Shown one piece after another: positions 52,783 to 63,061 of a DNA stretch of 64,000 nucleotides (positions within the stretch are counted from its first letter, which is position 1; each line of letters opens with the position of its first letter). Under the pieces are notes generated by a model, which saw only the letters and a list, made by a program, of their open reading frames with translations, made no database searches and was not told the origin of the DNA. The position numbers and the translations under genes were made by a program. Origin of the DNA: Gemmatimonas phototrophica (GTDB lineage: Bacteria; Gemmatimonadota; Gemmatimonadetes; Gemmatimonadales; Gemmatimonadaceae); contig CAMBNV010000001.1 in assembly GCA_945869195.1 (NCBI GenBank), positions 248,001-312,000 on the forward strand, written 5' to 3'.

Positions 52783-54423
52783 CTAACGATCCCCGATGAT
52801 GTCCACGTCCTTGGTCTCCCGCAAGAAGAGCGCCCCAACCACGAACGTCATGCTCGCGATGATCACGGGGTACCAGAGCCCCGCATAGATATCTCCTTTG
52901 GCCGCGACGATGGCGAACGCGGTCGTCGGCAAGAAGCCCCCAAACCATCCATTCCCGATGTGATACGGCAACGACATCGAGGTGTAGCGGATGCGGGTAG
53001 GAAACATTTCCACGAGCATCGCGGCGATCGGGCCGTACACCAGCGTCACGTAGATCACGAGAATCCAGAGCACGAACACGACCATCGGCTTGTTGATTCC
53101 CGCGGGATCTGCCGTGACCGGGTACGCGGCGTTGGTGAGCGCTGACCCGAGCGCCGCCGTGAATGACGCGCGCCGTGCGGGGGCGTCCTCGCCGGTGGCA
53201 TCGAACGATGCGACCGGCACCACGCCAACCCGGATCTCCGCGACGCTGCCGGCCGCGATTGTCTCGTTGCGGTACGGCACACCGCGCGCGACGAGCGCGG
53301 CCTTCGCGACGTCGCAGCTCGACGTGAACTTGCTCGTACCGACCGGATTGAACTGCACGGAACAGCTCGCAGGGTCGGCGGCGACGACGACCGGCGCTCG
53401 CTCCTGCGCCGACGCGAGCGCCGGGTTCGCGTAGTGCGTGAGCGCCTTGAACAAGGGGAAGTAGGTGAGCGCGGCGAGCGCGCATCCCAATAGGATGATT
53501 GGCTTACGGCCGATGCGGTCGGAGAGCGTGCCGAACACGACGAAGAAGGGTGTGGCGAGCAGGAGCGAGACCGCGACGAGGATGTTCGCGGTCTGCGCGT
53601 CGACCTTGAGCGTCTGGGTCAGGAAGAAGAGCGTATAGAACTGCCCCGTGTACCAGACAACCGCCTGGCCCGCGGTGAGACCGAAGAGCGCGAGCAGCAC
53701 GATTTTGAGGTTGCCCCACTTGGCGAATGACTCCGTGAGCGGCGCTTTGGACAGCGTACCCTCAGCCTTCATCGCCTTGAACACGGGCGACTCGTCGAGC
53801 GTGAGGCGGATCCAGACCGAGATGCCGAGCAGCAGGAGGGAGACGAGGAACGGAATGCGCCAGCCCCAGGATTCGAACGCCTCGGGCCCGAGCACAATCC
53901 GGCAGGTGGTGATGACGAGCAGCGAGAGAAAGAGACCGAGGGTCGCGGTGGTCTGAATCCACGATGTGTACGCGCCACGTGCTCCGTGGGGCGCATGTTC
54001 GGCAACATAGGTCGCGGCGCCGCCGTACTCGCCGCCAAGTGCGAGCCCTTGCAACAGCCGGAGCAGGATCAGCGTGACCGGCGCGGCGAAGCCGATGGTC
54101 GCGTACGACGGGAGGATGCCGACAACGAACGTCGACACGCCCATAATGACGATCGTGACCAGGAAGGTGTGCTTGCGCCCGACTAGGTCCCCGAGGCGGC
54201 CGAACACGAGCGCGCCGAAGGGCCGCACCGCGAACCCCGCCGCGAATGCGAGCAGCGCGAAGATGAACGCGGCGGTGGGATTCACCCCGGAGAAGAACTG
54301 CCGGCTGATAATCGCGGCGAGTGAGCCATACAGATAGAAGTCGTACCACTCGAAGACCGTACCGAGGGACGACGCGAGGATCACGCGACGCGTGTCGCGC
54401 GTGGTAGCAGGAAAGAGGGCCAT
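52783..54423 (-). CDS. MFS transporter, MHS (metabolite:H+ symporter) family
   Basis: A 546-residue transporter with 12 helices of the sugar-porter-like MHS group (proline/betaine/alpha-ketoglutarate). The N-terminus has SLGTVFEWYDFYLYG, FGRLGDLVGRKHTFL and LRLLQGLALGGEYGGAATYVAEHAP. An extra soluble segment of about 110 residues (about residues 345-455, with two cysteines) lies between helices; such inserts occur in some MHS proteins. It probably carries an organic acid or amino acid with protons. It lies 70 bases after the DUF5916 gene on the same strand. Confidence 0.92.
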   Translation of the reverse strand: MALFPATTRDTRRVILASSLGTVFEWYDFYLYGSLAAIISRQFFSGVNPTAAFIFALLAFAAGFAVRPFGALVFGRLGDLVGRKHTFLVTIVIMGVSTFVVGILPSYATIGFAAPVTLILLRLLQGLALGGEYGGAATYVAEHAPHGARGAYTSWIQTTATLGLFLSLLVITTCRIVLGPEAFESWGWRIPFLVSLLLLGISVWIRLTLDESPVFKAMKAEGTLSKAPLTESFAKWGNLKIVLLALFGLTAGQAVVWYTGQFYTLFFLTQTLKVDAQTANILVAVSLLLATPFFVVFGTLSDRIGRKPIILLGCALAALTYFPLFKALTHYANPALASAQERAPVVVAADPASCSVQFNPVGTSKFTSSCDVAKAALVARGVPYRNETIAAGSVAEIRVGVVPVASFDATGEDAPARRASFTAALGSALTNAAYPVTADPAGINKPMVVFVLWILVIYVTLVYGPIAAMLVEMFPTRIRYTSMSLPYHIGNGWFGGFLPTTAFAIVAAKGDIYAGLWYPVIIASMTFVVGALFLRETKDVDIIGDR

Positions 54424-54493: not shown

Positions 54494-57016
54494 CTACGGG
54501 TTAAACCAATACGACAGCTTCACCAGGAGCGTGTTATCTGGATGGGAGTAGAAAAGGTTGCGCAGATCGCGCCCCACTTCGAAGCTCGCGGGATCGCGCC
54601 CGTCGGACCGCCCCTGCTGCCAGACCACGAAAAGCACCGACCCTGGCCGGTACTCCCAGCGAACCACCGCGTTGGAGTTGAAATGCTTCGAGTTGAATCC
54701 GGCCGGATTCGCTCCGCCCCCGTATGGCGCGTAGCGCGCCGCATACGACGTGTTCCGCGCGTCCACCATCTCCCGCCAGTCGGCGAAGGCACCACTCGCG
54801 ATAAACGGCTGCGTGTAGAGTTGCACACTGAGCGCCGGAGTCAGCGTCACGTTGGCCCGCGTCTCGAGCACGAAAATGCTCTGCGCGAGCGCCGCGAAGG
54901 TGTAGTGCACCGTGTCGCTGAAGAGCGCGCCATAGTTGCGGACCGGCTGCGTGTCATCGGCCCGGCGCTCAAAGCTCCCCCTCAACTCGAGCGAGGTGCG
55001 TGTCCCCACTCGTCCCAGGACTCCGGCCGAGAGCTGCGCCGACCAGGAACGCCCCTCGTCCCCACGCGCGAGCCGAAAGTCGAGCTCGGGCACGATCGAA
55101 TGGCGCCCGTCCCCGTCGAGCGTCACGGAGATGCGGTGATACGGTGACACGCGGAGCAAGGGCCCGCCGCGCGCGCAGCTCACGCACATGGTGTTGCCGA
55201 GATTCGATACGGCGTACGTGAACGATGTGCCCCAAAAGTTCGCCATCTCGGCGGCGGCGTGCGCCGTCGCGACTGCGCCGGTGGGCAGGCCGCCTGAGGT
55301 CCAATGGTTCTCGTGCGAGAGGACCGCGTTCCCGCGGCGGTACCACTTGGTCGGCACCACCGACGACACCGAAAGTTGGCTCTTGACCATCGCGTCATTC
55401 ACCAACGGCACGAAACCGAGATCGTTCATCTCACTCCCCGGCTCCGCATAGCGCAGGGTGGTCTCCCAACGCACTCGGCCCGCGAACCGCCTGAGCGCGA
55501 TCGAGGTGACGCCGCCGTCCATCGACGTCCGCGTAGAGTCGTACCGCCGCTCGTGGTCGGGGCGCTGAAAGTAGTGAACGCTCGAGAGCTGTGTTCGCGC
55601 GATCGACGCCGCGCTGCCGCGGGCCGTTGCGCGCCCACCGTACGCCACAACTTCCCAGCGCTCGGCAAACCGGTGGTACCCCTGCAGGAGAACGGTATAC
55701 GCGTCACGACGGAGGAAGGGCTCGGTGCCTGCGTCGAGATCGCGCCGCAACGCCGTGACCATCGTGCCAATCTGAGAACGCCCGCCACGAAAATCCTGGA
55801 CGAGGCGACCGACGAGCGTCGTCGTGGCAGGCTCGATCGTCTGGCCTGCCACGCCCTGTTCGCGCGCCGACCCCACGGCGACGACACCGAACTGCGTTCC
55901 GCCCGAAAACCGTCCCGTCACCTTCGCCGCCGCCTGGATCGTACTCGATCGCGGGTCGCGATCACTCGTCGCGAGCTGCGGCGCCCGTCCAACGCGCCGC
56001 GTGTAGAAGATCCCCTCGCACGGACCATTGCAACGAAAGAGGTTACCACCTTCTTGGAAGAACGGACGACGCTCCTCGAATCGCACTTCGAAAGCGCTCA
56101 GGTTCAGTACAGCGGGATCCGCCTCGACCTGACCAAAATCGGGATTGATCGTCGCATCGACGGTGATGTTACTCGTGAGCCCAGCCTTCAAATCGAGCCC
56201 GAACGCCTGCCGCTGCGGATGCGTCCACCCGCCTACCGCACCCTCCGTCACGTTCTTGCTTACCGCGTACGGCATGACCTCGAGGCGGCGGTTGCGATCG
56301 ATGCCCGTGATTCCCGTGAGATCGCCCAGCTGCGAGGCAAAGGTACCGAGCGAGGTCCGGTAGGCCGGCCAGGCGTCGCGCTCACCGTAGCGCGCGACAT
56401 CACGCCAGATGCCCAACCCGAACGTCAGCGCTTCACCGGGATCGTACCGCAGTTGGGAGAACGGGATCGCGAACTCGGCGCTCCAGCCGAGGGTGTCTAC
56501 TTGGACCGCGACATCCCAGACGCCGTCCCACGCATTGTCCTCTTGTACATCGGCGAAGATTGTCGCGTCGCGCTTCACCCCGGCGGGATTCACCATGAAC
56601 TGGAGTCCACTGCGCCGATCGTGGAATCCGTCGATCACGACCTTGATCCATTCTGACGGCGTGCGCACGTCGCGACGGCTGAGAAGCGCGACGAGCGAGT
56701 CGGGGCGCGGGTCGTAGGCGCGGATGAAGACGTAGAGCGTCCGGTCGTCGTACGCGACCTGAAAGGCGGTGCGGAAACGCGACGGCCCGCCCTCATTTGG
56801 CGCGAACTGTCGAAACGCATCGGTGACGGGAGCCAGACGCCAGACGGAATCGTCGTCCCGGCCGTCAAGGCGAATGGGGGCGTCACTCCGCACCGCGCGT
56901 GCGGCGGAGACCGCGGAGCCGGCGGACTGGGCGGCGACATTCGCTGTGCTCGAGAGGCAGAAAATCGTGACAAGCGTGGCACAGCGTCGATTGGTCACAG
57001 AACTCCCTACGTGCAC
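54494..57016 (-). CDS. DUF5916 protein with N-terminal CBM9-like domain
   Basis: An 840-residue exported protein. A signal peptide (about residues 10-32) is followed by a CBM9-like carbohydrate-binding module (IRLDGRDDDSVWRLAPVTD to FAIPFSQLRYDPGEAL, about residues 47-205), then a large DUF5916 domain rich in beta strands with TVDATINPDFGQVEADPA and FEERRPFFQEGGNLF, ending in a strand-rich VKLSYWFNP tail that looks like an outer-membrane barrel end. DUF5916 proteins are widespread in Bacteroidota and Gemmatimonadota; the function is unknown, probably surface polymer or peptide handling. Confidence 0.87.
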   Translation of the reverse strand: MHVGSSVTNRRCATLVTIFCLSSTANVAAQSAGSAVSAARAVRSDAPIRLDGRDDDSVWRLAPVTDAFRQFAPNEGGPSRFRTAFQVAYDDRTLYVFIRAYDPRPDSLVALLSRRDVRTPSEWIKVVIDGFHDRRSGLQFMVNPAGVKRDATIFADVQEDNAWDGVWDVAVQVDTLGWSAEFAIPFSQLRYDPGEALTFGLGIWRDVARYGERDAWPAYRTSLGTFASQLGDLTGITGIDRNRRLEVMPYAVSKNVTEGAVGGWTHPQRQAFGLDLKAGLTSNITVDATINPDFGQVEADPAVLNLSAFEVRFEERRPFFQEGGNLFRCNGPCEGIFYTRRVGRAPQLATSDRDPRSSTIQAAAKVTGRFSGGTQFGVVAVGSAREQGVAGQTIEPATTTLVGRLVQDFRGGRSQIGTMVTALRRDLDAGTEPFLRRDAYTVLLQGYHRFAERWEVVAYGGRATARGSAASIARTQLSSVHYFQRPDHERRYDSTRTSMDGGVTSIALRRFAGRVRWETTLRYAEPGSEMNDLGFVPLVNDAMVKSQLSVSSVVPTKWYRRGNAVLSHENHWTSGGLPTGAVATAHAAAEMANFWGTSFTYAVSNLGNTMCVSCARGGPLLRVSPYHRISVTLDGDGRHSIVPELDFRLARGDEGRSWSAQLSAGVLGRVGTRTSLELRGSFERRADDTQPVRNYGALFSDTVHYTFAALAQSIFVLETRANVTLTPALSVQLYTQPFIASGAFADWREMVDARNTSYAARYAPYGGGANPAGFNSKHFNSNAVVRWEYRPGSVLFVVWQQGRSDGRDPASFEVGRDLRNLFYSHPDNTLLVKLSYWFNP

Positions 57017-57055: not shown

Positions 57056-58180
57056 TCACCACCCGCGGTGGTTCACCCAACGGCCGACGATCGCCGTCCC
57101 CTCACACACCACATACTCGGCGTGCTGGGCCGCCGTGAGACAGGAGTGGTTGACCAGCACGCGGACCCGAGCGCCCACCCCGAGTCGCGTGAGCAGCGCG
57201 TCGTCTCGTACGTGGACGACTCCATGCTCCTGCGAGAGGGACGTGACACGAAGCCCGAGGTCGCGCCCCTCGACGTCGAGAACGCGTCCGTAGTGCGTCA
57301 CGCCGTCGGCATCGGCGATCCCGGCGTCCTTGCTCAGCGCAATTCCACCGGCGTCGAGGATCACCGTGCCGCGCTTGGGGTCGCGATGGACAACGGCGGC
57401 GAGCACCGACAGCGCGCAATCGTCTGCCGTGCAGCTGCCGATCGTGACCTGCATCACGTCGAAGAATGCGTAGTTGCCGGCGCGCACTTCGTGCACGCCG
57501 GTGAGATGATCGACCCCCATCGCCGTCGGTGTTGAGCCAATGCTCACGGCGGGCACGGGTACGCCAGCCGACGCGAGGTGCGCCGCCGCCGCGACCATCA
57601 CGTCGCGTTCACTGCGCGCGACCGCGAGGATCTCGGTCGGACCACGCGCCTGGTACGAATGCCCCGCATGCGCGAGGATCCCGGCAAAGCGAAGATGTGT
57701 GCGCTCGCCGATGCGCCGTGCGAGTTCCGCGAGCGAGGGCCCCTCGGGATCGACGCCGCAACGATGGTAGCCACAGTCGACCTTCACCCAGGTGTCGACC
57801 GTCACGCCCGCCTGCCGCGCCGCCTCACCGAGTGGACCCGGTACGGTGACATCGTCGGTGATAACAGCAAGGCGCACCCCGGCCGCATTCATCTGTGCAA
57901 CCGCCTCGAACTTGCCGCGTTCGATCGGCACCGCGTAGGTGATATCGTCGAAGCCGTGCGCGGCGAAGGCGCGCGCCTCCGCAAGCGTCGAGACGGTGAT
58001 GCCGCGCATCCCCGCGGCGGCCTGCAGCCGCCCGACCTCGATGCTCTTGTGGGTCTTCACGTGCGGGCGCAGCGTGGCGCCCAGTCCGGCGATGCGGGCT
58101 CCCATCCGCGCCACATTGCGCTCCACCCGCGTGCGGTCGACCAGCAGGCTCGGCGTGGTGAGCGCGCCGAGATCACTCAC
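57056..58180 (-). CDS. D-serine dehydratase/D-threonine aldolase-like PLP enzyme
   Basis: A 374-residue fold-type III (alanine-racemase-like) PLP enzyme. The PLP region is LRPHVKTHKSIE (about residues 38-48, one of the two lysines being the Schiff base), and a beta domain begins around 255. The metal site near the end reads NHSC (His345, Cys347). Eukaryotic D-serine dehydratases use a His/Cys zinc pair here, whereas D-threonine aldolases have His/Asp; so I favour D-serine deamination. It overlaps the RidA gene by eight bases, and RidA removes the aminoacrylate that this reaction makes. Confidence 0.82.
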   Translation of the reverse strand: MSDLGALTTPSLLVDRTRVERNVARMGARIAGLGATLRPHVKTHKSIEVGRLQAAAGMRGITVSTLAEARAFAAHGFDDITYAVPIERGKFEAVAQMNAAGVRLAVITDDVTVPGPLGEAARQAGVTVDTWVKVDCGYHRCGVDPEGPSLAELARRIGERTHLRFAGILAHAGHSYQARGPTEILAVARSERDVMVAAAAHLASAGVPVPAVSIGSTPTAMGVDHLTGVHEVRAGNYAFFDVMQVTIGSCTADDCALSVLAAVVHRDPKRGTVILDAGGIALSKDAGIADADGVTHYGRVLDVEGRDLGLRVTSLSQEHGVVHVRDDALLTRLGVGARVRVLVNHSCLTAAQHAEYVVCEGTAIVGRWVNHRGW

Positions 58181-58559
58181 GGACGGCGGCGATGCAGTCG
58201 ATCTCGATGAGGCAGCCGGCCTTGAGTTCCCGAGTCGGGATCACAGCGCGCGCCGGCCGACTCTCGCCCATCACCTTTGCGTAGGTCGCGTTGACGGCAC
58301 CCCAGAGCGCGATGTCGCTCACATAGACATTCATCTTGAGTACGTGGGCGAAGTCGCTGCCCGCGGCCTCGAGCACTGCGCCGACATTTGCGAGGGCGCG
58401 CTCCGTCTGCTCCTCGATGCCGCCGGGTACGAGTTCGCGAGTGGCCGGGTCGAAGGCGAGCTGACCGGAGACATAAATCACACCGCGGTGCACGGTCGCA
58501 TGCGAGTAGTGGCCGGCAGGCGCAGGCGCCGTATTGGTCTGGACGTAGAGGATCGACAT
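58173..58559 (-). CDS. ridA: RidA family enamine/imine deaminase
   Basis: A 128-residue protein of the RidA/YjgF/UK114 family. Key features are HATVHRGVIYVSGQLAFDP, the Arg in SRPARAVIPTREL and the Glu in GCLIEIDCIAAV, which together bind the carboxylate and activate water. RidA hydrolyses reactive 2-aminoacrylate and related enamines. The gene overlaps the start of the D-serine dehydratase-like gene by eight bases, so the two are co-translated. This makes functional sense because PLP-dependent D-serine deamination releases aminoacrylate. Confidence 0.94.
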   Translation of the reverse strand: MSILYVQTNTAPAPAGHYSHATVHRGVIYVSGQLAFDPATRELVPGGIEEQTERALANVGAVLEAAGSDFAHVLKMNVYVSDIALWGAVNATYAKVMGESRPARAVIPTRELKAGCLIEIDCIAAVRE

Positions 58560-58613: not shown

Positions 58614-59222
58614 TCAGACGTCCAGATAGGGCGAGGGACCGCGGTCGTCCGCGCCAAAGAGCTCGCGCGACGACTTGCGCCCCTTCGGCCGCCCTGAGCT
58701 GTGCGGTGGCGGGATCGCCGGCCATTCATCCGGCGGGATCAGGTCCTTCACCATCTCGAGGAGCTGATGGCTCAGATGCTGGCCGTACTTGAAGAGCGCG
58801 ACCACGCGCGCGCGATTCCCGAGCAGGAAGACGAGGATCGGTTTGTCGGCCTTGGCCGCATTGCACACCTTGCAGCAGAGGACGAGGTTGTCGCGCCGGT
58901 CGTATGCCGTCTGCCCGCGCCGCGGCGTCACATGATCGAGGGTGATCGTGCGCTCAGGGACGAGCCGCTCGCAGTAGGCGCAGGTGGGCCCGAAGCGCTC
59001 GAGCAACCAGCGCCGCGTCTCGACATACGCCGCGCGTCCGGTGGGGACCGAGGTGAGCTGCGGTTGCCGTGCGGTGCTGCTGCTACTGCCGCCGCCGCCA
59101 CCGCCGCGTCGACGCCTCTTTTGGGGGCTTGCTGGCGCAGCCGCGGGCGCAGCCGCAGGGGCCGCGGGCGGAGTCGCCGCCCCACCGCGGCGCCGTCCGC
59201 GCCCTCCGCGAGAGGTCGCCAT
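58614..59222 (-). CDS. HNH endonuclease family protein
   Basis: A 202-residue protein. After a low-complexity Arg/Ala/Pro/Gly-rich N-terminal part (about residues 5-60), there is an HNH domain with CAYCERLVPERTITLDHVTP, YDRRDNLVLCCKVCNAAK (the two cysteine pairs and the catalytic His). The basic N-terminus may help DNA or RNA binding. Stand-alone genes of this type occur widely outside phages. ATG 59222 is chosen because the first 50 codons upstream carry no family similarity and overlap the promoter of the divergent operon. Confidence 0.85.
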   Translation of the reverse strand: MATSRGGRGRRRGGAATPPAAPAAAPAAAPASPQKRRRRGGGGGGSSSSTARQPQLTSVPTGRAAYVETRRWLLERFGPTCAYCERLVPERTITLDHVTPRRGQTAYDRRDNLVLCCKVCNAAKADKPILVFLLGNRARVVALFKYGQHLSHQLLEMVKDLIPPDEWPAIPPPHSSGRPKGRKSSRELFGADDRGPSPYLDV

Positions 59223-59364
59223 CAGCGAACGCGCACAATGAAAGGAATGGATGTCATCGGGACGAAAGATACCCCGGACGTCGGTTCCACCACACCCTCC
59301 GAGACCCGTGATTCCGCCCCCGATCGCGGACCAGCACCGCGCCGCCGTCCCCTTCGTTTCGGTC

Positions 59365-59386
59365 TTTACTTGAAACTTCAAGTAAA
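59365..59386. promoter_or_regulatory. Probable MarR operator (10-2-10 inverted repeat)
   Basis: TTTACTTGAA-AC-TTCAAGTAAA is a perfect inverted repeat of ten bases per arm, placed so that it covers the -35 box of the promoter upstream of the aromatic-CoA operon. The operon encodes a MarR regulator, for which such ACTTGAA...TTCAAGT palindromes are typical targets. Binding would block transcription. Confidence 0.75.
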
Positions 59387-59424: not shown

Positions 59425-61809
59425 GTGCGCGTACTGGTGGTCGGAGGCGGTCCGGGTGGGCTTTACGCGGCGCTGCTGCTCAGGCGGCGGCATCCGCACG
59501 CGCTCATCGAAGTGCACGAACGCAACCGCCCCGACGACACCTTCGGCTGGGGTATTGTGCTCTCCGACCAGACGGTCGCGAACCTGCGCGCCGCCGACCA
59601 GGAGAGTGCCGACGAAATCGCGAGCGCCCTGCATCATTGGGACGACATCGCCGTGCATTTTCGCGACCGGACGCTGCGCTCCGGCGGTCACGGCTTCAGT
59701 GGCATCGGGCGGGTGACGATGCTCCGGATTTTACGGCAGCGGTGCGAGACGCTTGGAGTGGTCTTGCGGTTCGAGCACGAGACCCCGCTCCACCTCGAGA
59801 CGCTCGTCGAGACCGACGGCTGGGACCTCGTGATCGCGTCCGATGGGATCAACAGCCGCATCCGCGAGCGCTATGCGAGCACCTTCCGCCCGGACACGGA
59901 GCTGCGTCACTGCCGCTACACCTGGCTCGGAACGGCGCGCACCTTCGACGCCTTCACCTTTGCGTTCGTCGAGACCGAGCACGGGTGGTTCCAAGCCCAT
60001 GCCTATCAGTTCGACGCCGGCATGAGCACCTTCATCGTCGAGGCGCCTCAGGACGTCTGGGAGCGCGCGGGGCTGGACGCAATGGACACCGCCGCGTCGA
60101 TCGCCTACTGCGAGCAGCTCTTCGCCAATCAGTTACAGGGCGCCCCCCTGCTGAGCAACTCGTTGCATCTGCGCGGCCCAGCGCAGTGGAGCCGCTTTCC
60201 GCGGATTACCTGCGAACAGTGGGTCCACCACCTGCAGACGGCGCGCGGCCGCGTCCCCCTTGTGCTCCTCGGCGACGCGGCCCATACGGCACATTTCTCC
60301 ATCGGGTCAGGGAGCAAACTCGCGCTGGAAGATGCGATTGCGCTCGACGCCTGTCTCGCGGCGTCACCGCACGATTACGCCCGCGCCCTCACGCGCTATC
60401 AGGCCGAGCGGGCCGTCGAAGTGCTCAAGCTGCAGAACGCCGCGCGCAACTCGACCGAGTGGTTCGAGCACGTCGACCGGTACGCGTCGCTCGCGCCCGA
60501 GCAGTTCGCCTACGCGCTGCTCACCCGGTCGCAGCGAATCTCGCATGAGAATCTGCGCCAGCGAGACCCCGCGTATGTCGCCGCGTTCGAGCGGTGGTTC
60601 ACCCAGGGCGCAGCGGCGAGCACGATCGACGGCATAGAGACCCCACCGGCGGTCCCCCCGCTCCTCACGCCCTATACGGTCCGCGGCTGCACGCTTCCCA
60701 ACCGCGTCGTGGTCTCGCCGATGGCGCAGTACAGCGCCGACACTGACGGATCGCCGAGCGACTGGCACCTTGTGCACCTCGGCGCGCGTGCGACCGGCGG
60801 CGCGGGATTGGTGATGACCGAGATGACCTGCCCCGCCGCCGACGCCCGAATCACTCCGTGGTGTCCGGGCCTCTGGACCGAGGCTCACCGTGACGCCTGG
60901 GCGCGCATCGTCGGCTTCGTGCATACCTACTCCCAAGCGCGTATCGGGCTGCAGCTCGGGCATGCGGGCGCCAAGGGATCCACAAAGAAGATGTGGGAAG
61001 GCATCGACCGGCCCCTCCCCACCGGCAACTGGCCCCTCGTCGCACCCTCCGAGACGGAGTACCTCACCGGGATCTCCCAACGTGCGCGCGCGATGACGCG
61101 CGAGGACATGGACCGCGTGCGCGATGAGTTCGTGCAGGCCACGCGACTGGCTGACGACGCCGGCTTTGATTGGCTCGAACTCCACTGCGCGCACGGCTAC
61201 CTGCTGTCGGCGTTCCTCTCGCCACTCACCAACCGTCGGAACGACGACTACGGTGGCGATCCGGAGCGCCGGGCGCGATTCCCGCTCGAAGTTTTTCGCG
61301 CGATGCGAGCGGCCTGGCCCGCCGATCGTCCGATGTCCGTGCGCATCTCAGCCCACGACTGGACACCCGGCGGCAATACCGGTGAGGACGCCGTCGGGAT
61401 CGCCCGCCTCTTCCACCAGGCGGGCGCCGACATGATCGATGTCTCCGCCGGCCAGGTGGTCCGGGACGAGAGGCCGGTGTACGGTCGCATGTGGCAGACT
61501 CCGCTCGCCGATGTCGTGCGACAGGACGCGGCCGTGCCGGTCATCGCCGTCGGCGCGATTAGCGACGCCGATCAGGCCAACGGGATCATCGCATCGGGCC
61601 GTGCCGATCTTGTGGCGATCGGTCGGCCGCATCTCGCGAATCCTGCCTGGCTGCTCGCGGAGTCCGCTCGACTCGGCTTCGACGGCAGCGAGGCGCTGTG
61701 GCCGCCGCAGTATCGCGCCGCCAAAGTTCAACTCGATCGCCTTCTGGACCGGGAGCGTGCCGCCATGGCCGCGTCTGCTCCGGCACCACCGAAAGGAGAA
61801 CTCACATGA
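59425..61809 (+). CDS. Bifunctional aromatic acyl-CoA monooxygenase/reductase (2-aminobenzoyl-CoA or salicylyl-CoA type)
   Basis: A 794-residue fusion. Residues about 1-395 are an FAD-dependent hydroxylase: VVGGGPGGLYAALLL at the start, the DLVIASDGINSRIR motif and LLGDAAHTAHFS. From about 410 follows an old-yellow-enzyme (NADH:flavin) domain with NRVVVSPMAQYSADTDG, GLQLGHAGAKGST and LHCAHGYLLSAFLSPLTNRR. This exact fusion is known as 2-aminobenzoyl-CoA monooxygenase/reductase or salicylyl-CoA 5-hydroxylase. It hydroxylates and reduces the ring of a CoA-activated aromatic acid. The GTG at 59425 has AGGAG upstream. It is the first gene of a MarR-controlled operon. Confidence 0.9.
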   Translation: MRVLVVGGGPGGLYAALLLRRRHPHALIEVHERNRPDDTFGWGIVLSDQTVANLRAADQESADEIASALHHWDDIAVHFRDRTLRSGGHGFSGIGRVTMLRILRQRCETLGVVLRFEHETPLHLETLVETDGWDLVIASDGINSRIRERYASTFRPDTELRHCRYTWLGTARTFDAFTFAFVETEHGWFQAHAYQFDAGMSTFIVEAPQDVWERAGLDAMDTAASIAYCEQLFANQLQGAPLLSNSLHLRGPAQWSRFPRITCEQWVHHLQTARGRVPLVLLGDAAHTAHFSIGSGSKLALEDAIALDACLAASPHDYARALTRYQAERAVEVLKLQNAARNSTEWFEHVDRYASLAPEQFAYALLTRSQRISHENLRQRDPAYVAAFERWFTQGAAASTIDGIETPPAVPPLLTPYTVRGCTLPNRVVVSPMAQYSADTDGSPSDWHLVHLGARATGGAGLVMTEMTCPAADARITPWCPGLWTEAHRDAWARIVGFVHTYSQARIGLQLGHAGAKGSTKKMWEGIDRPLPTGNWPLVAPSETEYLTGISQRARAMTREDMDRVRDEFVQATRLADDAGFDWLELHCAHGYLLSAFLSPLTNRRNDDYGGDPERRARFPLEVFRAMRAAWPADRPMSVRISAHDWTPGGNTGEDAVGIARLFHQAGADMIDVSAGQVVRDERPVYGRMWQTPLADVVRQDAAVPVIAVGAISDADQANGIIASGRADLVAIGRPHLANPAWLLAESARLGFDGSEALWPPQYRAAKVQLDRLLDRERAAMAASAPAPPKGELT

Positions 61810-62576
61810 AGCCGCTCGCCGGGCAGCACGCCCTCGTGACCGGAGCCAACCGCGGGATCGGCGCCGCGATCGCCCGCCATCTCGCAACAGGCGGGGCGAA
61901 TGTCACCCTCCTGGTGCGCACACCAGCGAACGCCGAACCCCTCGCGCAGGCGCTCGAGTCGCTCGGAGGACGCGTGGTGATCGTGAGCGCCGACGTGACC
62001 GACGCGGCCGCGCTCGCGCTCGCGATGAGCGAAGCGGTCGCCGCGCTTGGTCCGGTAGACGTCCTCGTGAACAATGCCGGCACCGCCGAAACGGCGTCTT
62101 TCCACCGCAGTGATGACGCGCTATTCACGCGCATGATCGGCGTGCACCTCATGGCGCCGGTGCACGCGATACAGGCGGTGCTGCCCGCGATGCTCGAGGC
62201 CGGACGCGGCCGGATCGTCAACATCGCGAGTATCGCTGGGCTCGCCGGCGGTCCGTACGTCACCGCCTACGTCGCGGCCAAGCATGCGATGGTCGGCCTG
62301 ACGCGGGCACTCGCCGTGGAGTACCGCAATACGGGCGTGCTCGTGAACGCCGTCTGCCCGGGCTACACCGATACCGAGATGGTCAGCCGTGCCGTGACGC
62401 GCGTTGTCGACAAGACGGGCATCGCCGCCCACGATGCGATCGCGACTATTCTGAAGGACAGCGGGCAACGACGCCTCGCCACCACGGACGAAGTCGCCTT
62501 GGCGACGCTCGCGTTCGCATTGCCGACGTGCACGGTCTCCGGCGAGACGACGCTCGTGATGGGCGATCCGGCATGA
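61806..62576 (+). CDS. Short-chain dehydrogenase/reductase (SDR)
   Basis: A 256-residue SDR with TGANRGIG cofactor motif (residues 12-19), NNAGTAE, the catalytic Ser in NIASIAGLAGG, and Tyr155-Lys159 in YVAAK. In related aromatic acyl-CoA clusters such an enzyme oxidises a 3-hydroxyacyl-CoA or ring alcohol intermediate. Its ATG overlaps the previous stop (ATGA), with AAAGGAG upstream, and its TGA overlaps the MarR gene start. Confidence 0.93.
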   Translation: MKPLAGQHALVTGANRGIGAAIARHLATGGANVTLLVRTPANAEPLAQALESLGGRVVIVSADVTDAAALALAMSEAVAALGPVDVLVNNAGTAETASFHRSDDALFTRMIGVHLMAPVHAIQAVLPAMLEAGRGRIVNIASIAGLAGGPYVTAYVAAKHAMVGLTRALAVEYRNTGVLVNAVCPGYTDTEMVSRAVTRVVDKTGIAAHDAIATILKDSGQRRLATTDEVALATLAFALPTCTVSGETTLVMGDPA

Positions 62577-63061
62577 TGACCGCTCCGGCACTCGACCCGG
62601 AGACGCGATTGCAGCGCGACGACCATGAGGCGTTGCGTCTCTGGCTGCGCCTCTTCACCTGCACCACGATGGTTGAACGCAGAGTCGACCAGATGCTCAA
62701 GCGCGCGTTTGGGTCATCGCTCGCGCGGTTCGACGTGCTCGCACAACTTGACCGTGCACCCGACGGCCTGCGTATGGGCGCACTGTCGGAGGGAACACTC
62801 ACGACGAACGGCAATGTTACGTGGCTGGTCGCCGCGCTCGAGGCCGATGGCCATGTCACGCGTCGAACGGCTCCCGATGATCGGCGCGCGACCGTCGTGC
62901 GCCTCACCGCGGCCGGCCGTCGGCATTTCACCCTCATGGCCCGCGAGCACGAAGCGCTGATCATCCATGGGTTTGCAGGGCTCACCGCACTCGAACGCCG
63001 CACCATGCACACGTTGCTCGGCACCGTGAAGCAGCACCTCAGACTCGAGAGGACCTCCTGA
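62573..63061 (+). CDS. MarR family transcriptional regulator
   Basis: A 162-residue winged-helix regulator. The helix-turn-helix lies around residues 55-85 ([20 protein letters not shown]), the wing has [13 protein letters not shown], and the N- and C-terminal helices form the dimer interface. Located inside the operon, with TGATG overlaps on both sides. It probably represses the operon through the inverted repeat at 59365-59386 and is released by an aromatic acyl-CoA; the ligand is inference. Confidence 0.92.

Follow-up and report, generated by a model that had tools for sequence, protein, structure and literature searches.

The gene pair and its surroundings

The window, a 64,000-nucleotide stretch of a Gemmatimonas phototrophica genome (2.33 Mb on 15 contigs), carries on its minus strand a RidA-family gene followed by a gene for a fold-type III PLP enzyme of the HxC metal type (Table 1). 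The sequence-only reading had described two minus-strand open reading frames overlapping by eight bases, and this was borne out. The RidA gene is one of seven Rid genes in the host genome, and the closest named records to the locus were two Gemmatimonadota MAGs (L078 and L079).

Table 1. Features of the RidA-dehydratase locus, in positions of the window
Feature	Position	Strand	Basis
Fold-type III PLP enzyme, HxC metal type (predicted DSD1-like dehydratase), 374 aa, GTG start	57056..58180	-	ORF, Pfam, PDB matches, AF2 model
RidA-family protein, 128 aa, ATG start, GHY-type, conserved Arg104 kept	58173..58559	-	ORF, Pfam/NCBIfam, residue alignment, trees
8-nt overlap, RidA stop codon within first dehydratase codons	58173..58180	-	sequence GTGAGTGA
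Lys42 codon, PLP Schiff-base lysine	58055..58057	-	alignment to AxDTA Lys59
His345-Ser346-Cys347 codons, HxC metal-binding motif	57140..57148	-	alignment to solved chains
His171 codon, at AxDTA Tyr187 place	57668..57670	-	alignment
RidA Arg104 codon, counterpart of Arg needed for imine hydrolysis	58248..58250	-	alignment; role from available text of PMC4433059
HNH-domain protein, directly upstream of RidA, kept at locus in genus	58614..59381	-	domain match, genus loci
DUF5916 protein, 39 nt downstream of dehydratase	54494..57016	-	domain match, genus loci
Metabolite:H+ symporter-like MFS transporter, 70 nt downstream of DUF5916	52783..54423	-	TIGR00883 match under cut-off, genus loci

All 13 genus genomes in the phylum sample held some member of the enzyme family. 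The order HNH-RidA-dehydratase was found in seven of them (G000, G205, G183, G087, G126, G290, G028), followed by the DUF5916 and MFS genes where the contig continues. Three genomes (G385, G248, G171) had HNH and then the dehydratase directly, with no Rid above 46% identity, and the other three (G004, G073, G129) had HNH-RidA at the same place without a window-type dehydratase, the RidA being 61-70% identical and a Delftia-clade HxC enzyme lying elsewhere in each. The 8-nt overlap was kept in G205, with varied short overlaps or gaps in other genus members. The pair is recurrent but separable in the genus, and its adjacency in 7/13 genomes is not due to chance, since with seven Rid genes in 2.33 Mb the probability that one falls within 1.5 kb of a given gene is about 1%. 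An apparent deletion of the dehydratase in G028 was dropped, the missing part being a run of 46 N, and the G171 dehydratase contains a frameshift that is possibly an assembly error.

Outside the genus, no Rid was found beside 21 other Gemmatimonadota NH[SA]CLT loci (L009-L027, L029, L030; flanks of about 1.5 kb or less) or in the flanks of the nine nearest non-genus loci (L080-L088, mostly Acidobacteriota). A scan of genome contigs placed a Rid within 4 kb at five of 80 loci. It lies directly downstream at L119, L142 and L150 and 672 nt upstream at L146, and the fifth locus, L079, is from Gemmatimonadota and has a 69% identical enzyme. Among 469 plasmid records with a match, four loci were opened and none had a Rid.

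The HNH protein has an Ala/Pro/Gly-rich N-terminus, weakly resembles IscB in its HNH portion (E 6.5e-11, well short of the cut-off), and was located upstream of RidA and/or the dehydratase in 13/13 genus loci examined. The match of the MFS transporter to TIGR00883 is split in two, perhaps due to an insertion, and at 352.5 bits stays below the cut-off of 443.45; the transporter's orthologue in G385 carries an in-frame TAG. Specificity of the MFS gene to the dehydratase was rejected, as an orthologue is kept elsewhere in G004, G073 and G129 at 75-77% identity. On the plus strand, a gene for a fused FAD hydroxylase/old-yellow-enzyme (59425-61809) matched the NCBIfam bifunctional salicylyl-CoA 5-hydroxylase/oxidoreductase (1233.8 bits against a cut-off of 1078) and is followed in an overlapping series by SDR (61698-62576) and MarR (62528-63061) ORFs; where the contig is long enough, most genus loci have these genes next to HNH.

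Residues, fold and tree position of the PLP enzyme

The window enzyme matched the Pfam families Ala_racemase_N (E 5.5e-24) and D-ser_dehydrat (E 2.8e-22), and its top NCBIfam match was the aldolase BhcC, scoring 133.9 bits where the cut-off is 690. In a sequence search of the PDB, the D-threo-3-hydroxyaspartate dehydratase of Delftia sp. HT23 (3WQC) was the best match with 267 bits, followed by the chicken D-serine dehydratase (3ANU; 221 bits), an Idiomarina protein with no assigned function (3LLX; 220 bits) and the aldolases 7DIB, 4V15, 6QKB and 7YQA (92-111 bits). An AlphaFold2 model built from a 19-sequence alignment (mean pLDDT 94.3) gave a fold Z of about 50 to the Delftia structures 3WQG/3WQC, 48 to 3LLX, 46 to the chicken enzyme and 42-44 to aldolases.

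Active-site residues were compared in an alignment of 125 rows including seven solved chains (three HxC, four aldolases). Lys42 aligned with Lys59 of the A. xylosoxidans D-threonine aldolase (AxDTA) and His345 with His347 of both AxDTA and the chicken enzyme, these positions being Lys and His, respectively, in all 125 rows. Cys347 aligned with AxDTA Asp349 and chicken Cys349, and this position was Cys in 120 rows, Asp in the four aldolases and a gap in one. The putative metal motif of the window enzyme reads Asn344-His345-Ser346-Cys347, with Ser346 merely a spacer, and alignment to the solved chains agrees with the sequence-only reading of a His-Ser-Cys motif in place of the aldolase His/Asp. 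The metal site of the Delftia dehydratase is numbered H351/C353 in PDB titles. The available text of PMC4401734 reports His/Cys coordination in chicken DSD and 3LLX versus His/Asp in AxDTA, and describes the former two as being without AxDTA His193.

At the place of AxDTA Tyr187 the window enzyme has His171 (His in 111 and Tyr in nine of the 120 HxC rows), at that of the proposed base His193 it has Gln177 (His in 25/120 HxC rows, and in several genus orthologues), and the aldolase Asp-Glu-His corresponds to Gln317-Glu-His (Gln in 110/120, Glu in 10/120). The four solved aldolases all have Asp as second ligand, Tyr187, His193 and Asp-Glu-His, whereas in the window enzyme, as in the three solved HxC chains, the second ligand is Cys, the Tyr187 place holds His and the triplet is Gln-Glu-His. 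The window enzyme lacks the aldolase marks His-x-Asp, Tyr187 and His193. Loss of His193 was rejected as a mark of dehydratases, and neither His193 nor Tyr187 is a strict mark, because His and Tyr occur there in 25 and nine of the 120 HxC rows. Nor is HxC diagnostic of a dehydratase by itself, as uncharacterised clades of the HVC type carry it too.

With aldolases as outgroup, the window enzyme fell in a 17-row set (support 100, starred) of Gemmatimonadota, Acidobacteriota, one Chloroflexota and one unclassified bacterium. The Delftia and chicken enzymes were placed in a separate 39-row set (support 96, starred), the chicken enzyme on a long branch and of unsure place, so the window enzyme does not group with the Delftia dehydratase. 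A 51-row tree separated the HxD rows from the HxC rows, which formed a single starred set. Identity to the window enzyme was 41% for Delftia, 38% for chicken and 28.5-30.8% for aldolases.

Rid genes beside HxC and HxD loci

Rid neighbours were counted in Pseudomonadota, using 299 genomes around G395 (the genome of L119) that were searched with the AxDTA chain and the window enzyme; 30/30 window-enzyme places and 30/60 AxDTA places were fetched with flanks of about 1.5 kb. A Rid flanked 8/19 dehydratase-clade HxC loci compared to 0/30 HxD loci (Fisher p 1.7e-4), lying directly downstream at seven of them and upstream by about 0.7 kb at L227. In the other HxC clades a weak partial Rid match was seen at 1/11 loci, and taking all 30 HxC loci against HxD gave p 4.6e-3. 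The G395 locus (L225) is the same as L119 and this genome had been chosen for its RidA, so counts were also made without it, resulting in 7/18 dehydratase-clade loci against 0/29 HxD loci (p 5.1e-4) and 7/29 against 0/29 when all HxC loci were included (p 0.010). A sample of 396 Actinomycetota genomes around that of L113 showed an adjacent Rid at 5/26 HxC loci (5/25 without the centre; the weak match L274 was not counted) compared to 0/11 readable-HxD loci, which alone is not significant (p 0.29). Pooled without both centres, the counts were 12/54 HxC and 0/40 HxD (p 9.9e-4), these Fisher p-values being optimistic because related genomes are not independent. Across the two phyla, 0/41 sampled HxD loci had a Rid beside them.

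The coupling spans more than one HxC clade, since a Rid was nearby at 5/10 fetched Gemmatimonadota HVC-type loci (L068-L077), divergent in four. HVC-type relatives with an adjacent, divergent Rid were L069, L070, L071 and L077, and in Actinomycetota a Rid was located directly upstream of L252, L253, L254 and L259. The HVC-type relatives may represent a third enzyme type, lying between the aldolases and the dehydratases.

Judged from the motif residues and from Rid genes flanking HxC but no HxD loci in these two other phyla, assignment of the window enzyme as a putative dehydratase, not an aldolase, is supported, and the inference of dehydratase over aldolase from Rid coupling appears to generalise. 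DSD1-type genes were frequent in the genomes searched and are loosely named (alanine racemase, DSD1), and a partner gene that told eliminating enzymes apart from the aldol-cleaving branch would serve as an inexpensive marker of function. Aldolase had been expected to be the usual automatic label, and this was not borne out among the 60 plasmid relatives listed (of 469 records): none carried an aldolase label, and those with a name were 'alanine racemase' or 'DSD1 family PLP-dependent enzyme'.

The window RidA matched Pfam Ribonuc_L-PSP (E 2.6e-34) and passed NCBIfam TIGR00004 'Rid family detoxifying hydrolase' with 115.6 against a cut-off of 106.25; four Pseudomonadota partner Rids tested scored 89.8-105.1. 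By alignment its Arg104 is the conserved Arg that, in the text available from PMC4433059, is needed for imine hydrolysis, and the strong partner Rids listed keep this Arg, except L254 with His. In a Rid tree, 23 partner rows from the genus and Pseudomonadota (22 different genes, L119 and L225 being one, with three genus RidAs among them that have no dehydratase beside them) were set against 36 other Rids, mostly same-genus paralogues and including identical pairs and Rids beside HVC-type genes. The partner Rids were on one side of a branch with support of 94/85 (not starred) that was present in 96% of 200 bootstrap trees, and the GHY motif occurred in 22/23 partner rows compared to 0/36 other Rids.

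As a control on the GHY motif, the window RidA was used to search 52 Pseudomonadota genomes. Of these, 19 carry a dehydratase-clade gene and the remaining 33 gave no match to the window enzyme at E 1e-40, though some of the 33 may have other HxC types; 30 loci were fetched and 22 genomes were without a fetched locus. A GHY Rid was present in 10/15 fetched loci of the dehydratase-clade genomes (9/14 without G395) and in 0/15 fetched loci from the genomes without a window-type match. Eight of the ten are the flanking Rids counted above, one (G576) lies about 3 kb downstream and one (G647) is on another contig. The five Actinomycetota partner Rids are of the GAY/GPY type and therefore form a separate case. 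It is possible, though we hold it only tentatively, that HxC D-hydroxyamino-acid dehydratases have a dedicated Rid partner, a GHY-type subfamily, that takes over the released enamine. If so, a genome with a GHY Rid would be predicted to encode an enzyme that eliminates and does not carry out aldol cleavage, and OngD-like proteins (see below) would gain a suggested role.

A second Rid gene (L037; G000:C1:314806-315150, plus strand) lies 2.8 kb past the right end of the window and about 8.6 kb from the window RidA, beyond the aromatic-CoA hydroxylase genes. In L037 and in three relatives from comparable positions (L042, L043, L045) Met replaces the conserved Arg (PAM), so this Rid may not be an imine hydrolase.

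Proposed role of the pair and its alternatives

We consider it probable that an elimination enzyme and RidA make up a two-step unit here, degrading a D-beta-hydroxy amino acid. What was observed is the gene anatomy, the enzyme family, the metal-ligand residues, the RidA Arg and the recurrence, within the samples, of Rid beside HxC and not HxD loci; the metal, the elimination chemistry, the substrate and the hand-over to RidA are as we infer them. The amino acid would be bound as a PLP aldimine on Lys42, and the beta-hydroxyl would be bound and activated by a divalent metal, probably Zn, with His345 and Cys347 as its ligands. Elimination of water would then release an enamine, 2-aminoacrylate in the case of D-serine, and hydrolysis of the enamine/imine tautomer by RidA would yield ammonia and the keto acid and so protect PLP enzymes. 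Against this reading, RidA is missing beside the dehydratase in 3/10 genus members with the dehydratase at the locus, a Rid is likewise absent from the flanks of the 21 Gemmatimonadota, nine non-genus and four plasmid loci described above and lies within 4 kb at only five of the 80 scanned loci, and OngC, a comparable enzyme introduced below, worked in vitro without its RidA protein OngD in the account available from PMC9537276.

D-serine as substrate is plausible but unproven, and as a guess we would put it a little short of even; another D-beta-hydroxy acid (D-threonine or D-glucosaminate, for example) is somewhat less probable, and 3-hydroxyaspartate is an outside candidate. The earlier argument that coupling to RidA favours a D-serine dehydratase over an aldolase stood at the level of enzyme class, but not for D-serine specifically, as the Delftia enzyme scores higher than the chicken enzyme (267 versus 221 bits) and a RidA lies beside L232. 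RidA was directly downstream of L232 (96.5% identical to the Delftia enzyme), L225, which is L119 (72.6-72.7%), and L238 (73.8%), and a coupling shared by a gene as close to the Delftia enzyme as L232 cannot separate these substrates. At clade-conserved positions, the chicken enzyme agrees with the window clade at nine (shared positions include Pro85, Lys133, Gly137, Asn236, Gln244 and Ser249) and sides with Delftia at eight, a split that favours neither D-serine nor hydroxyaspartate. The chicken Zn-dependent enzyme shares the fold, HxC and QEH with the window enzyme but scores below Delftia and sits on its long branch.

It is unlikely, in our estimate, that the window enzyme is primarily a D-threo-3-hydroxyaspartate dehydratase yielding oxaloacetate, with RidA clearing the enamine/imine intermediate. 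The Delftia enzyme is the highest match by sequence and fold score, sharing the fold, HxC and QEH, and RidA adjoins its close homologues, including L232 and L225/L119. In addition, a DSD1-type gene on a plasmid of Streptomyces sp. SYP-A7193 (L337) is followed after 54 nt by a gene with the annotation threo-3-hydroxy-L-aspartate ammonia-lyase, which suggests hydroxyaspartate use in that plasmid locus. However, the window enzyme lies outside the Delftia clade at 41% identity, differs from the Delftia type at the nine clade-conserved positions where chicken agrees with the window clade (the eight others go the other way), and has its RidA upstream and overlapping in place of downstream. That the enzyme acts instead on a D-beta-hydroxy acid of larger size, like OngC on D-glucosaminate, has the precedent and broad substrate range of OngC/OngD as described in PMC9537276, but a D-aminoacylase, KDG kinase or hexosaminidase was present in 0/9 neighbouring ORFs examined, and we regard this as quite improbable.

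A D-threonine or hydroxyaspartate aldolase with RidA as an unrelated neighbour would account for the shared fold, PLP lysine and metal-binding His, for the 28.5-30.8% identity to the D-threonine aldolases 4V15, 7DIB and 7YQA and the beta-hydroxyaspartate aldolase BhcC (6QKB), for BhcC as top NCBIfam match, albeit far under its cut-off, and for the His at the AxDTA His193 column in several genus orthologues. The window enzyme nevertheless has HxC not HxD, His not Tyr187 and QEH not DEH, it is separated from the aldolases in the tree, and none of the 41 sampled HxD loci had a Rid, making this reading very unlikely. RidA might also serve the HNH gene or general housekeeping and adjoin the dehydratase by inherited gene order alone, which we think rather doubtful. 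HNH-RidA without a window-type dehydratase in G004, G073 and G129, the dehydratase without RidA at the locus in G385, G248 and G171, and the six other Rid genes in the genome are all consistent with such inheritance; against it, RidA-type relatives flank Pseudomonadota HxC dehydratases in other orders (downstream in 7/8, about 0.7 kb upstream in 1/8), and G004, G073 and G129 each carry their Delftia-clade HxC enzyme elsewhere.

For the two-step unit, the nearest published case in kind that we found is OngC/OngD of oxidative chitin utilisation, likened here by description. According to the available text of PMC9537276, OngC is a fold-III PLP enzyme of the Pseudoalteromonas prydzensis ong cluster that deaminates D-glucosaminate, D-serine and D-threonine, and it made KDG and ammonia in vitro. 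In the same text OngD is a 127-aa RidA protein of a role its authors call unknown, whose deletion abolished growth on GlcNAc1A. Like the window pair, a fold-III D-amino-acid deaminase is encoded with a RidA protein, but the ong cluster differs in having a D-aminoacylase, KDG kinase, hexosaminidase and transporters. A Pseudoalteromonas plasmid locus (H60) was rejected as a possible OngC, being HACAT-type with no Rid found within 9 kb. Among the papers found outside subscription journals on RidA/YjgF with D-serine dehydratase, hydroxyaspartate or D-threonine aldolase, such a pair was described in PMC9537276 only, and not in the available portions of PMC9239102 and PMC9127364.

The terms 'D-serine', 'D-threonine', 'serine dehydratase' and 'aldolase' are absent from the main text of PMC4433059 (Niehaus et al., 2015). 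In its available text, Rid genes adjoin those for threonine dehydratase, aspartate aminotransferase, cysteine desulfurase and desulfhydrase, cystathionine beta-lyase and tryptophanase, so that, as in the window, a Rid gene stands beside a PLP enzyme able to release an enamine. A partner gene that marks the eliminating branch would extend the RidA damage-prevention picture, drawn mainly from L-serine/threonine dehydratases, to D-amino acid catabolism.
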